From: Microvirga antarctica
GTDB lineage: Bacteria; Pseudomonadota; Alphaproteobacteria; Rhizobiales; Beijerinckiaceae
Length of the DNA stretch: 64,000 bases
NCBI RefSeq assembly: GCF_017921815.1
Contig: NZ_JAGEMM010000008.1
Location: forward strand, 1 to 64,000
Direction: 5' to 3'
Positions 2 through 23,423 of the stretch are shown piece by piece. The position numbers and the translations under genes are program-made. Under the pieces are notes generated by a model that was not told where the DNA came from, ran no database searches, and was given only the letters and a program-made list of their open reading frames with translations. Within the stretch, counting starts at the first letter, position 1, and each line of letters opens with the position of its first letter.

Positions 2-2410
2 GTCGACTTCATCCACGCCTATACGGGCTACATCGCGCCCTCCCTGCGGGACATGCCGCGCGGCGGGATGGCGGAACGGCAAATCGACATCAGCTACCGC
101 GGGTCGATCCAGCCGCTGGAATTCGGCGGCCTGGGTTTCGAGAAGCGCGGGATCGGCTATGACGTTGCGGCAGCGACCGCGGGCGTGAGCGATCTCACCA
201 TCGATATTTCGAGCCGGTGGGAAGACCGCATCAACGGCACCGCCTGGTTCGATTTCCTCGGCCGCTCGAAGGTTGTGCTGGGCGTGGAATCGGGATCGAA
301 CCTGTTCGATTTTGACGGCAAAGTCGCCGCCTGGTGCCGGACCTATGAGGCGGAGAATGCGGGACTCGATCGCGATTCCCGGGAGTTCTACACCAAGGCG
401 CACGACGCCTACCTCCATCGCTTCGAAGGGAACGTGAACTACGCGCAGATTTCCCCCCGGCACTTCGAGGCTGCCGTCTGCAACGCCGCGCAGATCCTCT
501 ACGAAGGCACCTATTCGGGAATCTTCCTCCCAAATCGACACTTCTTTCCGTTGAAGCGCGACCTGTCGAACCTCGCGGAGGCCCTGGATTTCGCCCGCGA
601 CGAGGCGCGTCTGAAAGAGTTCGTCGACCGCACCTACGCCGAGGTGGTGCTGAACCCCGCCTATCACTACGAGCATTTCGTCGCGACCTTCGACGACGCC
701 GTCGAGCGGCGGATGGAGCGCAAGGCCATCGCGCCTGCCAGCAGCCCGGCACGCAACGCCGTCTCAAAGACGCCCAAGGCGCTGCTGTTGATGGCCCACG
801 AGCCGAGCATCGATCCCCGCATCGACTGGTTCGCCGACAGTCTGGCAGAGACGTTCGAAGTCTGCGAGATCGGCGTCTACCGCCACGATGCGGAAATGAC
901 AGACCCGACTGTCGAGAGAGTGACGGACCGCCGCTCGCGCGTGCGGGTCAACGGCCATATCACCAACTGGAATTTCATCAACGCGGACGCGAGCAATCCG
1001 GCGCAGGGGCATCTCGGCCTCGACACGATCAAGAACCTGTTCGTCCTCGCCCAGTTGCCGGCGCGCAGCCTTGGCGATGCCATCGGCGCGCTCGATGCCG
1101 ACGAGGACGATCTCTATCGGTTCCGCTGGTTCTGCCGCTATTTCGTGATGCGCAATTCCGCCCTGCTGCACGCGGCTCGGCTGATCGGCGGGTTCGACGT
1201 GGTTGTGGCGGTCGATCTCGACACGCTACCCGCAGCCATCGCCCTGGCGGAGGAATACGGCGTTCCGGTCATCTACGACGCCCATGAATACTGGCCATAC
1301 TCGAACCCGGACACGCGCCATTGGGAAGTCGAATTCTGGTCGAATCTGGAGCGGACACTTCTCGCCCACACGGCTCTACGGGTGACGGTGTCGCCGCAGA
1401 TGGCGCACGCCATGGCCGATGCCTACGGGTGCTCATTCGGCTATATTCCAAACTGCACCGCACTCGGCTCGGAAAAGGCGGTCGATCTGGAAGCCGCCCT
1501 CGCCCAAAACGCGGAACGATCAGACGTCATTTTCCTCTTCCAGGGAAATTTTGCCCCGTTTCGCGGCATCGAGAAGCTGATCGAGGCGTGGGATTCCGTC
1601 GACCCGCGCGCGAAGCTGTGGCTGCGCGGACCCGACAGCAACCTCAAGACCACGCTGATGCAGCAGGCTCGCAGCAAGGGCCTGCTGGATCGGACCGTCT
1701 TCTTCCCCGATGCGGTCGCCGAGAAGGATCTCATCACCTCAGCGCGAGAAGCCGATGTCGGCCTCATCTCGTATGAGCCGCAGAACATCAACTATCGGTT
1801 TTCATCACCCAACAAGCTGTCGCAGTACATGGCAGCCGGGATGCCGATCATCACGAACGAGATCGAGTTCGTGAAATCCATCGTGCTCGGCAATGGCGTG
1901 GGCTCGGCGGTCAATTTCAGCGACAAGGCCGCGCTCGTTCGCGAGATCAATCGTTACGTCGCCGACCGCCCGCTCATCCAGACCCTGTCCCGAAAAGCCA
2001 GAGAAGTCTTTACCTCCCTGTTCAACTGGCAGGTGGCGAGCGCTCCGACCTACAAGGCCATCAACCAGATGGCAGAAACCCTGGCGTTGAATCCGCGGCC
2101 GTTTTCATTCGAATGGATGAGACACAAGGATGAATGGAAGCCTCAGGCGGCGACGATGGAGGCGGACCTGCAGCGCCTCAGCGACGAGATTCACCGTCTC
2201 AACACCGTTTATCCCGAACACATCAGCCGGCTCACGGCCGTGATCGAGGGGGCGAGCATTCGCAACATCGTGGTGTACCGGCTGAAGGTGGCGGCGCGCC
2301 CGATGGCGCTGGCGCTCTACCACTCGCCTGTGTCGAAGCCGCTTCGGCCGTTCTTCGATACATTGGTCGCCAAGCGCAGGGCACGCCAGCAGGCTGCCAA
2401 GAAGTCCTGA
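2..2410 (+). CDS. Two-module glycosyltransferase (CgeB-like + GT4), 5' truncated by window edge
   Basis: The reading frame is open from base 2, and its first residues (VDFIHAYTGY) align with an internal stretch of the paralogue at 43533-46457, so the true start lies upstream of the window; about 160 residues are missing. The first visible 250 residues are a CgeB/Glyco_trans_1_2-like module with the family motif GVESGSNLFDFDG (about residues 92-105) and a R-x-FEAA segment. Residues from about 265 to 680 are a GT4-type module with YDAHEY and SPNKLSQYMAAG. The C-terminus is probably coiled-coil (HRLNTVYPEHISRL). It presumably transfers sugars onto a surface polysaccharide in the cytoplasm; donor and acceptor are unknown. 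It lies upstream of the convergent exporter genes. Confidence 0.85.
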   Translation, partial: VDFIHAYTGYIAPSLRDMPRGGMAERQIDISYRGSIQPLEFGGLGFEKRGIGYDVAAATAGVSDLTIDISSRWEDRINGTAWFDFLGRSKVVLGVESGSNLFDFDGKVAAWCRTYEAENAGLDRDSREFYTKAHDAYLHRFEGNVNYAQISPRHFEAAVCNAAQILYEGTYSGIFLPNRHFFPLKRDLSNLAEALDFARDEARLKEFVDRTYAEVVLNPAYHYEHFVATFDDAVERRMERKAIAPASSPARNAVSKTPKALLLMAHEPSIDPRIDWFADSLAETFEVCEIGVYRHDAEMTDPTVERVTDRRSRVRVNGHITNWNFINADASNPAQGHLGLDTIKNLFVLAQLPARSLGDAIGALDADEDDLYRFRWFCRYFVMRNSALLHAARLIGGFDVVVAVDLDTLPAAIALAEEYGVPVIYDAHEYWPYSNPDTRHWEVEFWSNLERTLLAHTALRVTVSPQMAHAMADAYGCSFGYIPNCTALGSEKAVDLEAALAQNAERSDVIFLFQGNFAPFRGIEKLIEAWDSVDPRAKLWLRGPDSNLKTTLMQQARSKGLLDRTVFFPDAVAEKDLITSAREADVGLISYEPQNINYRFSSPNKLSQYMAAGMPIITNEIEFVKSIVLGNGVGSAVNFSDKAALVREINRYVADRPLIQTLSRKAREVFTSLFNWQVASAPTYKAINQMAETLALNPRPFSFEWMRHKDEWKPQAATMEADLQRLSDEIHRLNTVYPEHISRLTAVIEGASIRNIVVYRLKVAARPMALALYHSPVSKPLRPFFDTLVAKRRARQQAAKKS

Positions 2411-17531: not shown

Positions 17532-17556
17532 AACGTATGGTCATGGGGAGAGTTCC
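17532..17556 (-). promoter_or_regulatory. EcfG-type promoter of the hypothetical two-gene operon
   Basis: On the minus strand: GGAAC (17556-17552), 16-nt spacer, CGTT (17535-17532), a perfect consensus match. The GTG start at 17491 lies 40 nt downstream. Confidence 0.8.
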
Positions 17557-17639: not shown

Positions 17640-18284
17640 TCAGGGCTTCGGCGCAGGGGTAACCGGGGCCATGGGCGTCGCGGAGCCGCTGGTCGAGGTA
17701 GACTTGGTGCTGTCGCGATCCGTGTCGAACGCCGGAGCAGCCTGGAGCTCTGCCTTTGTCATCCGCAGGATGACCCGCTCCGGCTCGCCGTCATCGGTCG
17801 TGGCGGTCGTCGTCGTTGTGGTGGCGCTCGGCGCCGGAGCGTTGACCGTGCCGGTGGTCGAGCCGGTGGTCGTGACAGCGTTCTTCTTGGTCATGGCGCT
17901 GACCTGCTCGCGGGTCGCGAATTCGAGGGCCGCGAAGGGGACGGCGACGTCCTTTTCGCCGATGCCGAGAAACCCACCGACGCCGACAATAGCCGCTACC
18001 GTCTGGCCGTTGCGATCAAGAACGACGTCGTTGATATCGCCGACCGATTCATTGTTGGCGCTGATCACCTTGGTGCCGATCAACTCGGACGCCAGGAGCT
18101 GATGGTGCTCGATCTTGGTCATCACCTTTGTAGGAGCGCCCGGCATGGTGGCCGAGGGCGCAGGCGCCATCATGGTCGAACCGGGCATCGCTGGCGACGC
18201 CGAAGGAGCTGCGGGGGTCTGCGCAAGTGCCGGGACTGCAAAAACGGTCGCGAGAAGACATGCTGCGATATGTGTCCTGGTCAT
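17640..18284 (-). CDS. Exported PRC-barrel domain protein
   Basis: Encodes 214 residues from ATG at 18284, with AAGGAG 9 nt upstream. The frame extends to 18380, but a perfect EcfG promoter lies inside that extension. A signal peptide (TRTHIAACLLATVFAVPALAQ) is followed by an Ala/Pro-rich linker. The PRC-barrel comes next (about residues 70-140), with LIGTKVISANNESVGDINDVVLD and VAAIVGVGGFLGIGEKDVAVPF, and the tail is Thr-rich with repeats. PRC-barrel proteins of this exported type are common, stress-induced and often duplicated in rhizobia; the molecular role is unknown. Confidence 0.87.
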   Translation of the reverse strand: MTRTHIAACLLATVFAVPALAQTPAAPSASPAMPGSTMMAPAPSATMPGAPTKVMTKIEHHQLLASELIGTKVISANNESVGDINDVVLDRNGQTVAAIVGVGGFLGIGEKDVAVPFAALEFATREQVSAMTKKNAVTTTGSTTGTVNAPAPSATTTTTTATTDDGEPERVILRMTKAELQAAPAFDTDRDSTKSTSTSGSATPMAPVTPAPKP

Positions 18285-18347
18285 GGGGAGAACTCCTTCT
18301 AGAAAACAAAATAAAATGACGTCCGTGCGTGTCGCACTTGCCACTGT

Positions 18348-18372
18348 AACGGCGAAATTCTGAGATCGTTCC
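18348..18372 (-). promoter_or_regulatory. EcfG-type promoter of the PRC-barrel gene
   Basis: Minus strand: GGAAC (18372-18368), 16-nt spacer, CGTT (18351-18348), a perfect match, 63 nt upstream of the start codon. Confidence 0.82.
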
Positions 18373-18527
18373 CGGATCAATGCGATGCTGCGCAGCTATA
18401 TCGATATTTCTTAGGAGCCATAATAGCCAAGTTCATCCATTATTATCTTATAACGTACTATGGAATAATCCAAAAACACTCAGAAACAACAGTTGATTAG
18501 CCTTTGCTTACGCAAAGCTCCCAACGA

Positions 18528-20414: not shown

Positions 20415-20948
20415 TCAGGCCCGTGTCGGGATAGCCCTGTCGAGGTGGGTGACGCACAGGCTCGGGCCGGATTCCTTGCCGGCCTGCGCAAGCGGGCTGA
20501 CCGAACCCAGGCAACCGTGCGGTTGGGCACGGCGTTTCGGCGCCGCGTCGTCCTCGCTTGCGCCGCGGGAGACGGGCTGCCGCTTCACGAGACTGGCGGG
20601 CTCTTCCTTCAGCGTCAGCACTGGAAGATCCGTATCCTTGGAATAGTACGTGGTATTGGACTTGGGATCAGAGCTGAACAGCACGTTGCCATTGTCGTCT
20701 TTCAAAACCACACGAACATTGGAGACCCCGACAAGCTCCACCACAGAAACGCCATGGCGAGACCCGGCGGGCGACGCGGGAGCCAACCGATCGGCCTTGG
20801 CAAAGGACTCCACCCCTCGGCTGACGGCAATCGACGAGGTTCCGACCGCATCCCGCCCGACGTCATCACTGATCGCACCCGGCGCGAAGCTCGCGACCAT
20901 AAAGGCACTCCCGATCATTCCGGTGACGGCTGCTGGCAGATGGAACAT
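20415..20948 (-). CDS. Exported protein of unknown function, EcfG promoter
   Basis: Encodes 177 residues from ATG at 20948, preceded by GGGAG. The N-terminus MFHLPAAVTGMIGSAFMVASFAPGA looks like a signal peptide or anchor. A central segment with alternating hydrophobic residues (VVELVGVSNVRVVLKDDNGNVLF) suggests a beta-rich fold, and the C-terminal third is basic with two cysteines. No family is recognised. A perfect EcfG-type promoter lies 54 nt upstream, and phyR is the next annotated protein gene on that side. It is presumably a periplasmic stress-response protein. Confidence 0.65.
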   Translation of the reverse strand: MFHLPAAVTGMIGSAFMVASFAPGAISDDVGRDAVGTSSIAVSRGVESFAKADRLAPASPAGSRHGVSVVELVGVSNVRVVLKDDNGNVLFSSDPKSNTTYYSKDTDLPVLTLKEEPASLVKRQPVSRGASEDDAAPKRRAQPHGCLGSVSPLAQAGKESGPSLCVTHLDRAIPTRA

Positions 20949-21001
20949 GGTCGTCTCCCGCCGTTCCAAGACTTTGTGGAAAGAGGCTTTCTCGGCAAAA
21001 C

Positions 21002-21026
21002 AACGCCACTGTTTCGCCTAGGTTCC
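21002..21026 (-). promoter_or_regulatory. EcfG-type promoter of the exported hypothetical gene
   Basis: Minus strand: GGAAC (21026-21022), 16-nt spacer, CGTT (21005-21002), a perfect match, 54 nt upstream of ATG 20948. Confidence 0.82.
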
Positions 21027-21062
21027 GGCACTTCGCGCGAACCTTCGTCAAGGTCCCACATC

Positions 21063-21088
21063 GGAACATTCGCGGTCTGGACAGCATT
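21063..21088 (+). promoter_or_regulatory. Possible EcfG-type promoter of a small RNA
   Basis: GGAAC (21063-21067), 17-nt spacer, CATT (21085-21088): a one-mismatch -10. No protein gene follows on this strand before the terminator at 21149-21177. Confidence 0.45.
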
Positions 21089-21093
21089 ATGTT

Positions 21094-21177
21094 ACGACCG
21101 GCCTCCTGGTCCTCCCCCGCATTCCCCTTGTGCATTGGCCGGCACCTGACAGACGGGCCCTCGGCCCGTCTGTTTTG
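21094..21177 (+). ncRNA. Candidate GSR-linked small RNA with CCTCC motifs
   Basis: Between the EcfG-like promoter at 21063-21088 and a strong terminator at 21149-21177 lies a stretch of about 84 nt without a plausible reading frame. It carries two CCTCC motifs (within 21100-21115), which as CCUCC are anti-Shine-Dalgarno elements typical of alphaproteobacterial small RNAs. The 5' end is estimated from the promoter position. Small RNAs under EcfG control are known in this class. Whether this belongs to a known family cannot be decided here. Confidence 0.45.
21149..21177 (+). terminator. Strong intrinsic terminator with no upstream protein gene
   Basis: An 11-bp perfect stem (ACAGACGGGCC / GGCCCGTCTGT) with loop CTC is followed by TTT then G. 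The orphan position suggests it ends a non-coding transcript. Confidence 0.7.
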
Positions 21178-21190
21178 TGGGGAGAGCATG

Positions 21191-21220
21191 AAAAAACCCG
21201 GCGGTGAGGCCGGGCTTTTC
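21191..21220 (-). terminator. Intrinsic terminator of phyR
   Basis: Read on the minus strand: AAGCCCGGC, a short loop, GCCGGG, then six T residues, located 23 nt after the phyR stop. Confidence 0.85.
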
Positions 21221-21242
21221 GAAGACGGCGACGCCGAGGCGT

Positions 21243-22046
21243 TTAGGCGGACGCCCTCACGTCGCGCCGGCGTGCGCTCTGCTGGAAGAACAGCGCTTGG
21301 CTGATGACCGCCGAGACATTGGCGGGCTGGAACGGCTTGGCGATGAGGAAGGCTGGCTCGGGACGCTCACCGGTCAGGAAGCGCTCAGGGTAGGCCGTGA
21401 TGAAGATGACCGGCACTTCGAAGGTTTTCAGGAGGTCGTTGACCGCATCGAGCCCCGAGCTGCCGTCGGCGAGCTGAATATCCGCAAGGATCAACCCCGG
21501 GCGCTTGGATGCCGCAAGCTTGACCGCCTCGGTGCGCGTGCGCGCCACGCCGGTCACGTTGTGGCCCAGACCCTCGACGAGCGCTTCCAGATCCATCGCG
21601 ATCAGCGGTTCGTCCTCGATGATCATGATGTCGGTCGCCATGTCGGCGGCCAGCTCCCGGCCCGCTTCATCGACAAGGTCACGGACCGAACGGGCATCGG
21701 TGGACAGGATCTTGCCGACCTCGTCCTCGCCGAACCCTTCCAGGCAAGACAGCAGAAACGCCTGACGGGGCAGTGGGGTGATCTGGCCAAGCCGAACTTC
21801 AGCCGGCAGGTCACGCTGGGTAAGATCGCTGCGGCCATTGACCGAAAGCGAGTTCCAGATCCGTGTGAAGACCTGAAACAGCTCGACCTTCACGTTGCCG
21901 TTCGGCGCGATGGTGTCAGGCTCGCTGACCAGCGTCTCAAGAGTTGCCGCAACGTAGGCATCACCGGCCATCTGGCTTCCGGTGAGCGCCCGTGCGTAGC
22001 GCCGTAGATATGGCAGGTGTTGGACGACAAGCTGCGCTGTCGACAT
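21243..22046 (-). CDS. phyR: PhyR, anti-anti-sigma response regulator of the general stress response
   Basis: Encodes 267 residues, the normal PhyR length. Residues 1-120 are the sigma-factor-like domain (LPYLRRYARALTGSQMAGDAYV, LPRQAFLLSCLEGF). Residues 138-260 are a receiver domain with IIEDEPLIAMDLE, the phospho-acceptor Asp in LILADIQLADGSSG, and FITAYPERF, the variant found in this family. When phosphorylated, PhyR sequesters NepR and frees EcfG. The start has AAGGGGA upstream. It is divergent from nepR-ecfG and carries its own near-consensus EcfG promoter, so the circuit is autoregulated. No cognate HWE/HisKA_2 kinase is present in the window. Confidence 0.97.
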   Translation of the reverse strand: MSTAQLVVQHLPYLRRYARALTGSQMAGDAYVAATLETLVSEPDTIAPNGNVKVELFQVFTRIWNSLSVNGRSDLTQRDLPAEVRLGQITPLPRQAFLLSCLEGFGEDEVGKILSTDARSVRDLVDEAGRELAADMATDIMIIEDEPLIAMDLEALVEGLGHNVTGVARTRTEAVKLAASKRPGLILADIQLADGSSGLDAVNDLLKTFEVPVIFITAYPERFLTGERPEPAFLIAKPFQPANVSAVISQALFFQQSARRRDVRASA

Positions 22047-22099
22047 TCGCGTCCCCTTGAATTTGGCTTTTTGACTTTTGGTTTCGATACGAACCCTCC

Positions 22100-22131: not shown

Positions 22132-22156
22132 GGAACCGAACCACGCGGCGTGCGTT
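22132..22156 (+). promoter_or_regulatory. EcfG-type promoter of nepR-ecfG
   Basis: GGAAC (22132-22136), 16-nt spacer, CGTT (22153-22156), a perfect match, about 92 nt upstream of nepR. Confidence 0.85.
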
Positions 22157-22248
22157 GGGAACTAGGTCACTATGCGCTTACTGCCAAGTTTTGCAAACTG
22201 CGACGATTAAGATCGACGGCCAGAAAACACGGTCGCTAGGGGAATTAT

Positions 22249-22467
22249 ATGACGGCTGACAAGGGCAATAAGAGCGCCCGTGTTCTTCGGGAGGACGATT
22301 TCGGCGATAAGCTCGCATCCGATCCCAAACTCGACACCGTCAGCCAGAAGCGAATCGGCGACCAGTTGAGAGCGATGTACGACGACCTGGTCCAGCAGCC
22401 TGTTCCCGACAGATTCAAGGATCTTCTGGCCGCACTGGAAGGGAAAGGCGCGGAGACAAAGAAGTGA
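22249..22467 (+). CDS. nepR: NepR, anti-sigma factor
   Basis: Encodes 72 residues with the diagnostic core IGDQLRAMYDDLVQQPVPDRF (about residues 38-58) flanked by charged tails, as in all NepR proteins. It binds EcfG under non-stress conditions and PhyR~P under stress. ATG 22249 follows an AGGGGA site. Its stop overlaps the GTG start of ecfG (GTGA), coupling translation of sigma and anti-sigma factor. Confidence 0.96.
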   Translation: MTADKGNKSARVLREDDFGDKLASDPKLDTVSQKRIGDQLRAMYDDLVQQPVPDRFKDLLAALEGKGAETKK

Positions 22468-23009
22468 CCCTCGAGCCCGATCTGCGGGACGACCTTCTGG
22501 CCGCTGTGCCGAGCCTGCGGGCCTTCGCGATTTCTCTCTCCGGACATGTGGACCGCGCCGACGATCTGGTCCAGGACACGCTGCTCAGAGCATTGTCCAA
22601 CCTCCACCGCTTCGAGCGGGGCACGAACCTTAATGCCTGGCTGTTCACGATCCTCCGCAACCTGTTTCACTCTCAATACCGCAAGCGGCGACGGGAGGTG
22701 GAAGATCCGGACGGGTCTTACGCGAGCCGGCTGACCGTGCAACCGGAACAGGGCGCACGCCTCGATTTCGAGGATTTTCGGACGGCCCTTTCCACCCTCC
22801 CTCATGACCAAAGGGAAGCTTTGCTTCTGATCGGCGCATCGGGATTCTCCTACGAGGAGGCTGCTGTCATCTGCGGATGTGCTGTGGGAACCATCAAGAG
22901 CAGGGTCAACCGGGCGCGCTCGCGCCTGAGCAGCATCTTGAAGGTGGATGCGACGGAAGCCATAGGCTCCGACCCCGTGATCCGGGCAGCTCTCCACACC
23001 GCGCGATAA
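22464..23009 (+). CDS. ecfG: EcfG, general stress ECF sigma factor
   Basis: Encodes 181 residues from a GTG start overlapping the nepR stop by 4 nt. The sigma-2 region (VDRADDLVQDTLLRAL, NAWLFTILRNLFHSQYRK) and sigma-4 region (LPHDQREALLLIGASGFSYEEAA, GTIKSRVNRARSRL) are both complete. This is the ECF15-type sigma factor that directs transcription from GGAAC-N16/17-CGTT promoters. It is co-transcribed with nepR, and a bidirectional terminator follows about 30 nt after the stop. Confidence 0.96.
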   Translation: MTLEPDLRDDLLAAVPSLRAFAISLSGHVDRADDLVQDTLLRALSNLHRFERGTNLNAWLFTILRNLFHSQYRKRRREVEDPDGSYASRLTVQPEQGARLDFEDFRTALSTLPHDQREALLLIGASGFSYEEAAVICGCAVGTIKSRVNRARSRLSSILKVDATEAIGSDPVIRAALHTAR

Positions 23010-23398: not shown

Positions 23399-23423
23399 GG
23401 AACGGACCCATCGCCCCCACGTT
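23399..23423 (+). promoter_or_regulatory. EcfG-type promoter of the small membrane protein gene
   Basis: GGAAC (23399-23403), 16-nt spacer, CGTT (23420-23423), a perfect match. It lies 27 nt upstream of ATG 23451 and inside the longer open frame, which excludes the earlier starts. Confidence 0.8.

Follow-up and report, generated by a model that had tools for sequence, protein, structure and literature searches.

The promoter, predicted transcript and terminator beside phyR

The stretch of Microvirga antarctica DNA analyzed here (64,000 nucleotides (nt), positions 1 to 64,000 of contig NZ_JAGEMM010000008.1, assembly GCF_017921815.1; hereafter the window) carries the phyR, nepR and ecfG genes of the general stress response and, convergent with phyR, a short unit that appears to encode a small RNA (sRNA). 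By sequence comparison, the gene, the promoter and the structure of this sRNA are well supported. The features of the locus are as follows:

21063..21088, plus strand: EcfG-type promoter GGAAC-N17-CATT, read from the letters (GGAAC 21063-21067, CATT 21085-21088)
21094..21176, plus strand: candidate sRNA gene, about 83-85 nt, with its 5' end placed by promoter spacing
21148..21176, plus strand: intrinsic terminator, identified by folding; its sequence varies across genera while the structure is kept
21243..22046, minus strand: phyR, convergent with the sRNA (Pfam PhyR_sigma2, PhyR_sigma-like and Response_reg)
22249..22467, plus strand: nepR (Pfam NepR), with an EcfG-type site upstream at 22132
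22464..23009, plus strand: ecfG (Pfam Sigma70_r2 and r4_2), with a 4-base overlap at the nepR stop, according to the coordinates

An earlier note, made from the letters of this DNA, had proposed a near-consensus EcfG promoter with a CATT -10 element, followed by a terminator with no plus-strand gene before it, and both are indeed present. A stem of 12 pairs, one of them G-U (21148-21159 with 21163-21174), with a 3-nt loop and a T run behind it makes up the terminator. Its folding energy is -22.6 kcal/mol (z -5.6; equaled by 0 of 200 shuffles), and the fold of the 85-nt predicted transcript has a z of -4.1. The terminator went unlisted by a simple scanner, whose tail rule demands 5 or more T within 8 bases. 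No credible plus-strand gene was found ahead of the unit among the open reading frames of the window.

The promoter is conserved in the 109 sRNA copies compared: GGAAC is found in 109/109 and the exact form GGAAC-N16/17-CGTT in 106/109, the window copy being the only one to read CATT at -10. With C[GA]TT allowed, the window as a whole contains 7 EcfG-type sites versus 2.05 (standard deviation 1.55) in shuffles, a surplus expected for the surroundings of a stress locus.

Other EcfG-type matches occur at 17556, 18372 and 62692 (minus strand) and at 23399 (plus strand), that at 18372 lying just upstream of a gene for a PRC-barrel protein (17640-18380). A divergent GGAAC-N16-CGTT at 21026 (minus strand) precedes an uncharacterized protein without a Pfam match (20415-20969, minus strand), and a similar divergent site was seen in other Microvirga loci.

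Conservation and phylogenetic range

A blastn search with positions 21040-21185 was run against 60 relatives, 36 of the same genus (Microvirga) and 24 from other families. Of the 36 Microvirga genomes 35 gave matches, at 84-95% identity, and the 24 others gave none; the matches were confined essentially to 21097-21176, the predicted transcript. This restriction to the transcript, together with the 35/36 versus 0/24 distribution, argues for conservation beyond chance. We further compared 80 named phyR loci of Microvirga and of Methylobacterium, the genus in which PhyR was first characterized, some metagenome bins being among them. The sRNA lies downstream of phyR on the opposite strand in all 79 loci with enough flanking sequence (the 80th, L106, ends too early to judge), albeit some 200-400 bases farther from phyR in three of them (L100, L105 and L108). 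The core is almost invariant, and the flanks and the terminator sequence are variable. The short, terminated non-coding unit suggested by the earlier note thus corresponds to a conserved block, and synteny with phyR, which it had proposed to check in relatives, is kept.

A covariance model of the sRNA (R1) matched 58 of 298 sampled genomes of the family. The strong matches came from four genera, namely Microvirga (g1), g45, g60 and g33, the last of which is Methylobacterium to judge from its relationship to the named loci. In g45 and g60 the sRNA again adjoins phyR and has an EcfG-type promoter. Across Alphaproteobacteria, 383 of 385 genomes had no R1 match at E<=0.001, the two matches being the genome of the window and one other member of the family, so that at this threshold none was found outside the family among the sampled Alphaproteobacteria. 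Borderline matches in other families (L155, L156 and L158-L162), with no phyR nearby, were judged to be chance terminators.

Two sets of related elements were also seen. Weaker R1 matches in genus g65 represent a short form, CCGGCC-CCGCTTTGCCCCCATC-GGCCGG, with EcfG-like promoters (L163 1488-1560 and L164 585-660, both beside phyR, and L154 4218-4290). Near phyR in other genera and in one other family there are EcfG-promoted stem-loops of a different kind, again with a C-rich loop and a terminator (L216 at about 3467, minus strand; L229 at about 1354, plus strand; L251 at about 3667, minus strand), and these are likely further RNAs resembling GsrN, the EcfG-dependent sRNA of Caulobacter.

A conserved loop on an exchangeable stem

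Upstream of the terminator, the sRNA is predicted to form a single stem with a conserved loop, composed of the following elements:

21098..21103, plus strand: 5' side of the outer stem, CCGGCC, pairing with 21137-21142; compensated swaps in relatives and paralogs
21115..21133, plus strand: conserved loop CCCCGCATTCCCCTTGTGC with the inner hairpin GCAU-UCCCCUU-GUGC, delimited by conservation that includes the paralogs
21121-21130, plus strand: proposed pairing region AUUCCCCUUG, part of the conserved loop
21137..21142, plus strand: 3' side of the outer stem, GGCCGG, pairing with 21098-21103; compensated swaps

The loop 16-mer is present with at most one mismatch in 47 of 48 Microvirga genomes, and also in paralogs with other stems. 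Large Microvirga genomes contain such additional copies, which keep the loop CCCCGCATTCCCCTTG on stems GGACCC/GGGTCC, CGGCCC/GGGCCG or similar; in g45 the stem reads CTGGCC/GGCCAG. The fact that paralogs and relatives exchange the stem with compensation yet hold CCCCGCATTCCCCTTG indicates that the stem is kept as a structure and the loop as a sequence. Since a MAFFT alignment of the paralogs misplaces the 3' side, stems were compared sequence by sequence, with the register of each picked so as to pair, which biases the comparison toward pairing. The terminator stems likewise differ between Microvirga and Methylobacterium, several pairs being changed on both sides.

The additional copies mostly keep the upstream GGAAC, and in most paralogs GGATT or GAATT takes the place of CGTT at -10, which may reflect a different EcfG specificity. 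Paralogous copies were found near ecfG paralogs in L195, L203 and L208. In L197 a copy at 1444 lies near an Hfq gene (2077-2289, minus strand; PF17209), perhaps an additional copy of hfq.

Complementarity to the ribosome sites of phyR and nepR

The reverse complement of the loop AUUCCCCUUG is CAAGGGGAAU, and the loop is complementary to the Shine-Dalgarno sequences of phyR (CAAGGGGA) and of nepR (AGGGGAAU). In the window the respective leaders read TTCAAGGGGACGCGA-ATG and CTAGGGGAATTAT-ATG, and comparison of leaders defined two proposed targets:

22052..22059, minus strand: Shine-Dalgarno site of phyR, CAAGGGGA
22238..22245, plus strand: Shine-Dalgarno site of nepR, AGGGGAAT

We infer the targeting of phyR and nepR by the loop primarily from the way in which these sites track the sRNA across genera and from their rarity elsewhere. 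AAGGGG or AGGGGA occurs in 82 of 84 phyR leaders accompanied by the sRNA versus 7 of 42 in genera or families without it; for nepR leaders the corresponding numbers are 77/84 and 2/31. Leaders of neighboring open reading frames contain it in 7 of 348 cases. When AAGGGG at ribosome-site distance was counted by position over 74 loci of about 8.8 kilobases (open reading frames of at least 55 amino acids), the phyR bin held 47 starts, the nepR start bins 63 and any other bin at most 3. In the nearest sRNA-free relative by phyR (L215, PhyR 77% identical) the site differs (AAAGGAT). A perfect complement of at least 8 nt to the species' own loop was found for 48 of 82 phyR starts, 49 of 81 nepR starts and 13 of 745 control starts; a part of the long matches among the controls is probably due to overlap with the RNA gene itself. 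In the genome of the window, CAAGGGGA-N3-9-ATG occurs 8 times and opens three long gene-like frames: that of phyR and two named by eye from their translations, one for a tricarboxylate-transporter-like receptor and one for a racemase-like product.

Several observations weigh against this interpretation. By duplex energy in the GC-rich genome of the window, phyR ranks only 32nd and nepR 28th among 191 starts, and shuffled loops did as well in 95 of 1000 cases for phyR and 201 of 1000 for nepR. The phyR site is absent in L088 and L107 and the nepR site in 7 leaders, despite the presence of the sRNA, and the nepR leaders of g45 are without it. AAGGGG-type sites are usable by ribosomes and could be conserved for that alone. 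Finally, the sequences come from related genomes, with all carriers of the sRNA in a single clade; the leader counts are therefore not independent, and Fisher P values computed from them overstate independence. As for ecfG and its paralogs, they were rejected as targets, the complementarity of their leaders being not above control.

A feedback model and its alternatives

Taken together, these data lead us to favor, with some reservation, the view that the unit encodes a sigma-EcfG-induced, GsrN-like, trans-acting sRNA of about 84 nt that acts as a translational repressor of PhyR and NepR, providing feedback on the partner switch. Under stress, EcfG would transcribe the sRNA from its own promoter, and the RNA would fold into one stem displaying the C-rich loop, followed by the terminator. 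The loop AUUCCCCUUG would then pair with the Shine-Dalgarno sites of phyR and nepR, which are of the AAGGGG type, and lower translation of both genes, the position of the sites being our reason for proposing repression as the direction of the effect. EcfG would thus raise the sRNA at the same time as phyR and nepR, whose translation the sRNA would restrain; this joint induction is suggested by the EcfG-type promoter before nepR (22132) and by promoters mapped or predicted before phyR and nepR in Methylobacterium extorquens (PMC4814048). In Microvirga the overlap of nepR and ecfG would possibly carry the effect on to ecfG. In Methylobacterium, where ecfG is undetected beside nepR in most loci (35 ecfG matches versus 81 for nepR), it would bear instead on the PhyR-NepR balance. 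In this manner the general stress response would limit and tune its own partner switch.

The best-surviving alternative, which we nevertheless regard as rather unlikely, is that the sRNA is real and EcfG-dependent and acts mainly on other stress mRNAs, its match to phyR and nepR being incidental or minor. A precedent exists in Caulobacter GsrN, whose C-rich 5' loop acts on G-rich leaders and activates katG (PMC5869019); besides, the energy scan does not put phyR and nepR first, and the extra paralogs are not next to a phyR carrying such a site. On the other hand, the site distinguishes phyR and nepR from the neighboring genes and follows the presence of the sRNA between genera.

The earlier note had proposed that CCUCC loops mask ribosome sites, pointing to two CCTCC motifs in the middle of the unit. 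Both motifs exist (21102-21106 and 21111-21115), and a C-rich loop able to mask ribosome sites is retained in our model; CCTCC itself is not the conserved element. The first motif shares bases with the 5' side of the stem and is replaced by CCACC or CCGCC in Methylobacterium; paralogs, which keep CCCCGCATTCCCCTTG, have neither motif. Moreover, the Shine-Dalgarno sites matched are of the AAGGGG type, not the GGAGG with which CCUCC would pair. It is thus very improbable that the sRNA is a generic anti-Shine-Dalgarno RNA titrating or masking many ribosome sites by its CCUCC motifs rather than by UUCCCCUU, even though CCTCC occurs twice in the window copy and RNAs with CCUCCUCCC loops are known in Rhizobiales (PMC3927594).

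That there is no regulatory RNA at all, the region being a conserved DNA element, a small open reading frame or a plain phyR-side terminator, is hardly credible: convergent terminators beside phyR are common and the transcript is a predicted one, but phyR has a separate terminator of its own at about 21190-21222, the transcript contains no ATG frame and its core differs in length by one or two bases between species, which would disrupt a frame on either strand and argues against a protein gene (a conserved coding frame was what the earlier note had named as evidence against an sRNA), and promoter, stem-loop and terminator stay together even at paralogous sites with changed stems.

Comparison with known systems

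None of the families in Rfam 15 matched the sRNA at gathering or relaxed thresholds, a search suggested by the earlier note. The weak overlap with SorX (RF02784), likewise a short alphaproteobacterial stress sRNA, gave the best plus-strand score (11.6 bits versus a gathering threshold of 46.6), and membership was rejected. In the literature searched (mostly without subscription papers), neither an sRNA controlling phyR or nepR nor the core 16-mer was found. Post-transcriptional control has been inferred for the general stress response of Methylobacterium, and a small RNA was suggested, none being named, for EcfG3 (PMC4814048). The sRNA beside phyR is a concrete candidate for such control in the general stress response, although regulation of EcfG3 is not obviously explained by it, as the leaders of ecfG paralogs show no match.

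The CCUCCUCCC-loop sRNAs (SmelA075, SmelA099) similarly have C-rich, anti-Shine-Dalgarno-like loops on variable stems (PMC3927594). However, each of their three or four hairpins carries CCUCCUCCC, whereas the sRNA described here has a stress-sigma promoter and a single stem with CCCCGCAUUCCCCUUG; its one CCUCCCC stretch is absent from paralogs, and we do not assign it to that group.

The closest parallel is GsrN of Caulobacter crescentus and its Caulobacteraceae relatives, which is dependent on sigma-EcfG/SigT, usually located near ecfG-nepR-phyR, and composed of a 5' stem with a C-rich loop and a terminator (PMC5869019). BLASTn searches with GsrN found no match outside Caulobacteraceae, and GsrN-like RNAs were predicted in Rhizobium, Sinorhizobium, Brucella, Bradyrhizobium and Rhodopseudomonas; Methylobacterium has 0 occurrences in the text of that paper (PMC5869019). 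The predicted RNAs were named by location, EcfG site and C-rich loop (Rhizobiaceae) (PMC5869019), traits shared by the sRNA family described here: an exact GGAAC-N16/17-CGTT promoter in 106/109 copies, a phyR-side location in 79/79 loci, and a 5' C-rich stem-loop with a terminator. It is therefore best called GsrN-like, as a separate sequence family likened by architecture, promoter and location, not by GsrN sequence. We lean slightly toward regarding it as a new sRNA family of Methylobacterium, Microvirga and two related genera, in which one loop would pair with the ribosome sites of both phyR and nepR in translational feedback on PhyR-NepR-EcfG, with copies duplicated alongside ecfG paralogs. 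If so, the GsrN idea would extend to a family without a reported case and with a different kind of target: the known target of GsrN, katG, is activated (PMC5869019), whereas the conserved match of the present sRNA is to the ribosome sites of phyR and nepR, that is, to the partner switch itself.
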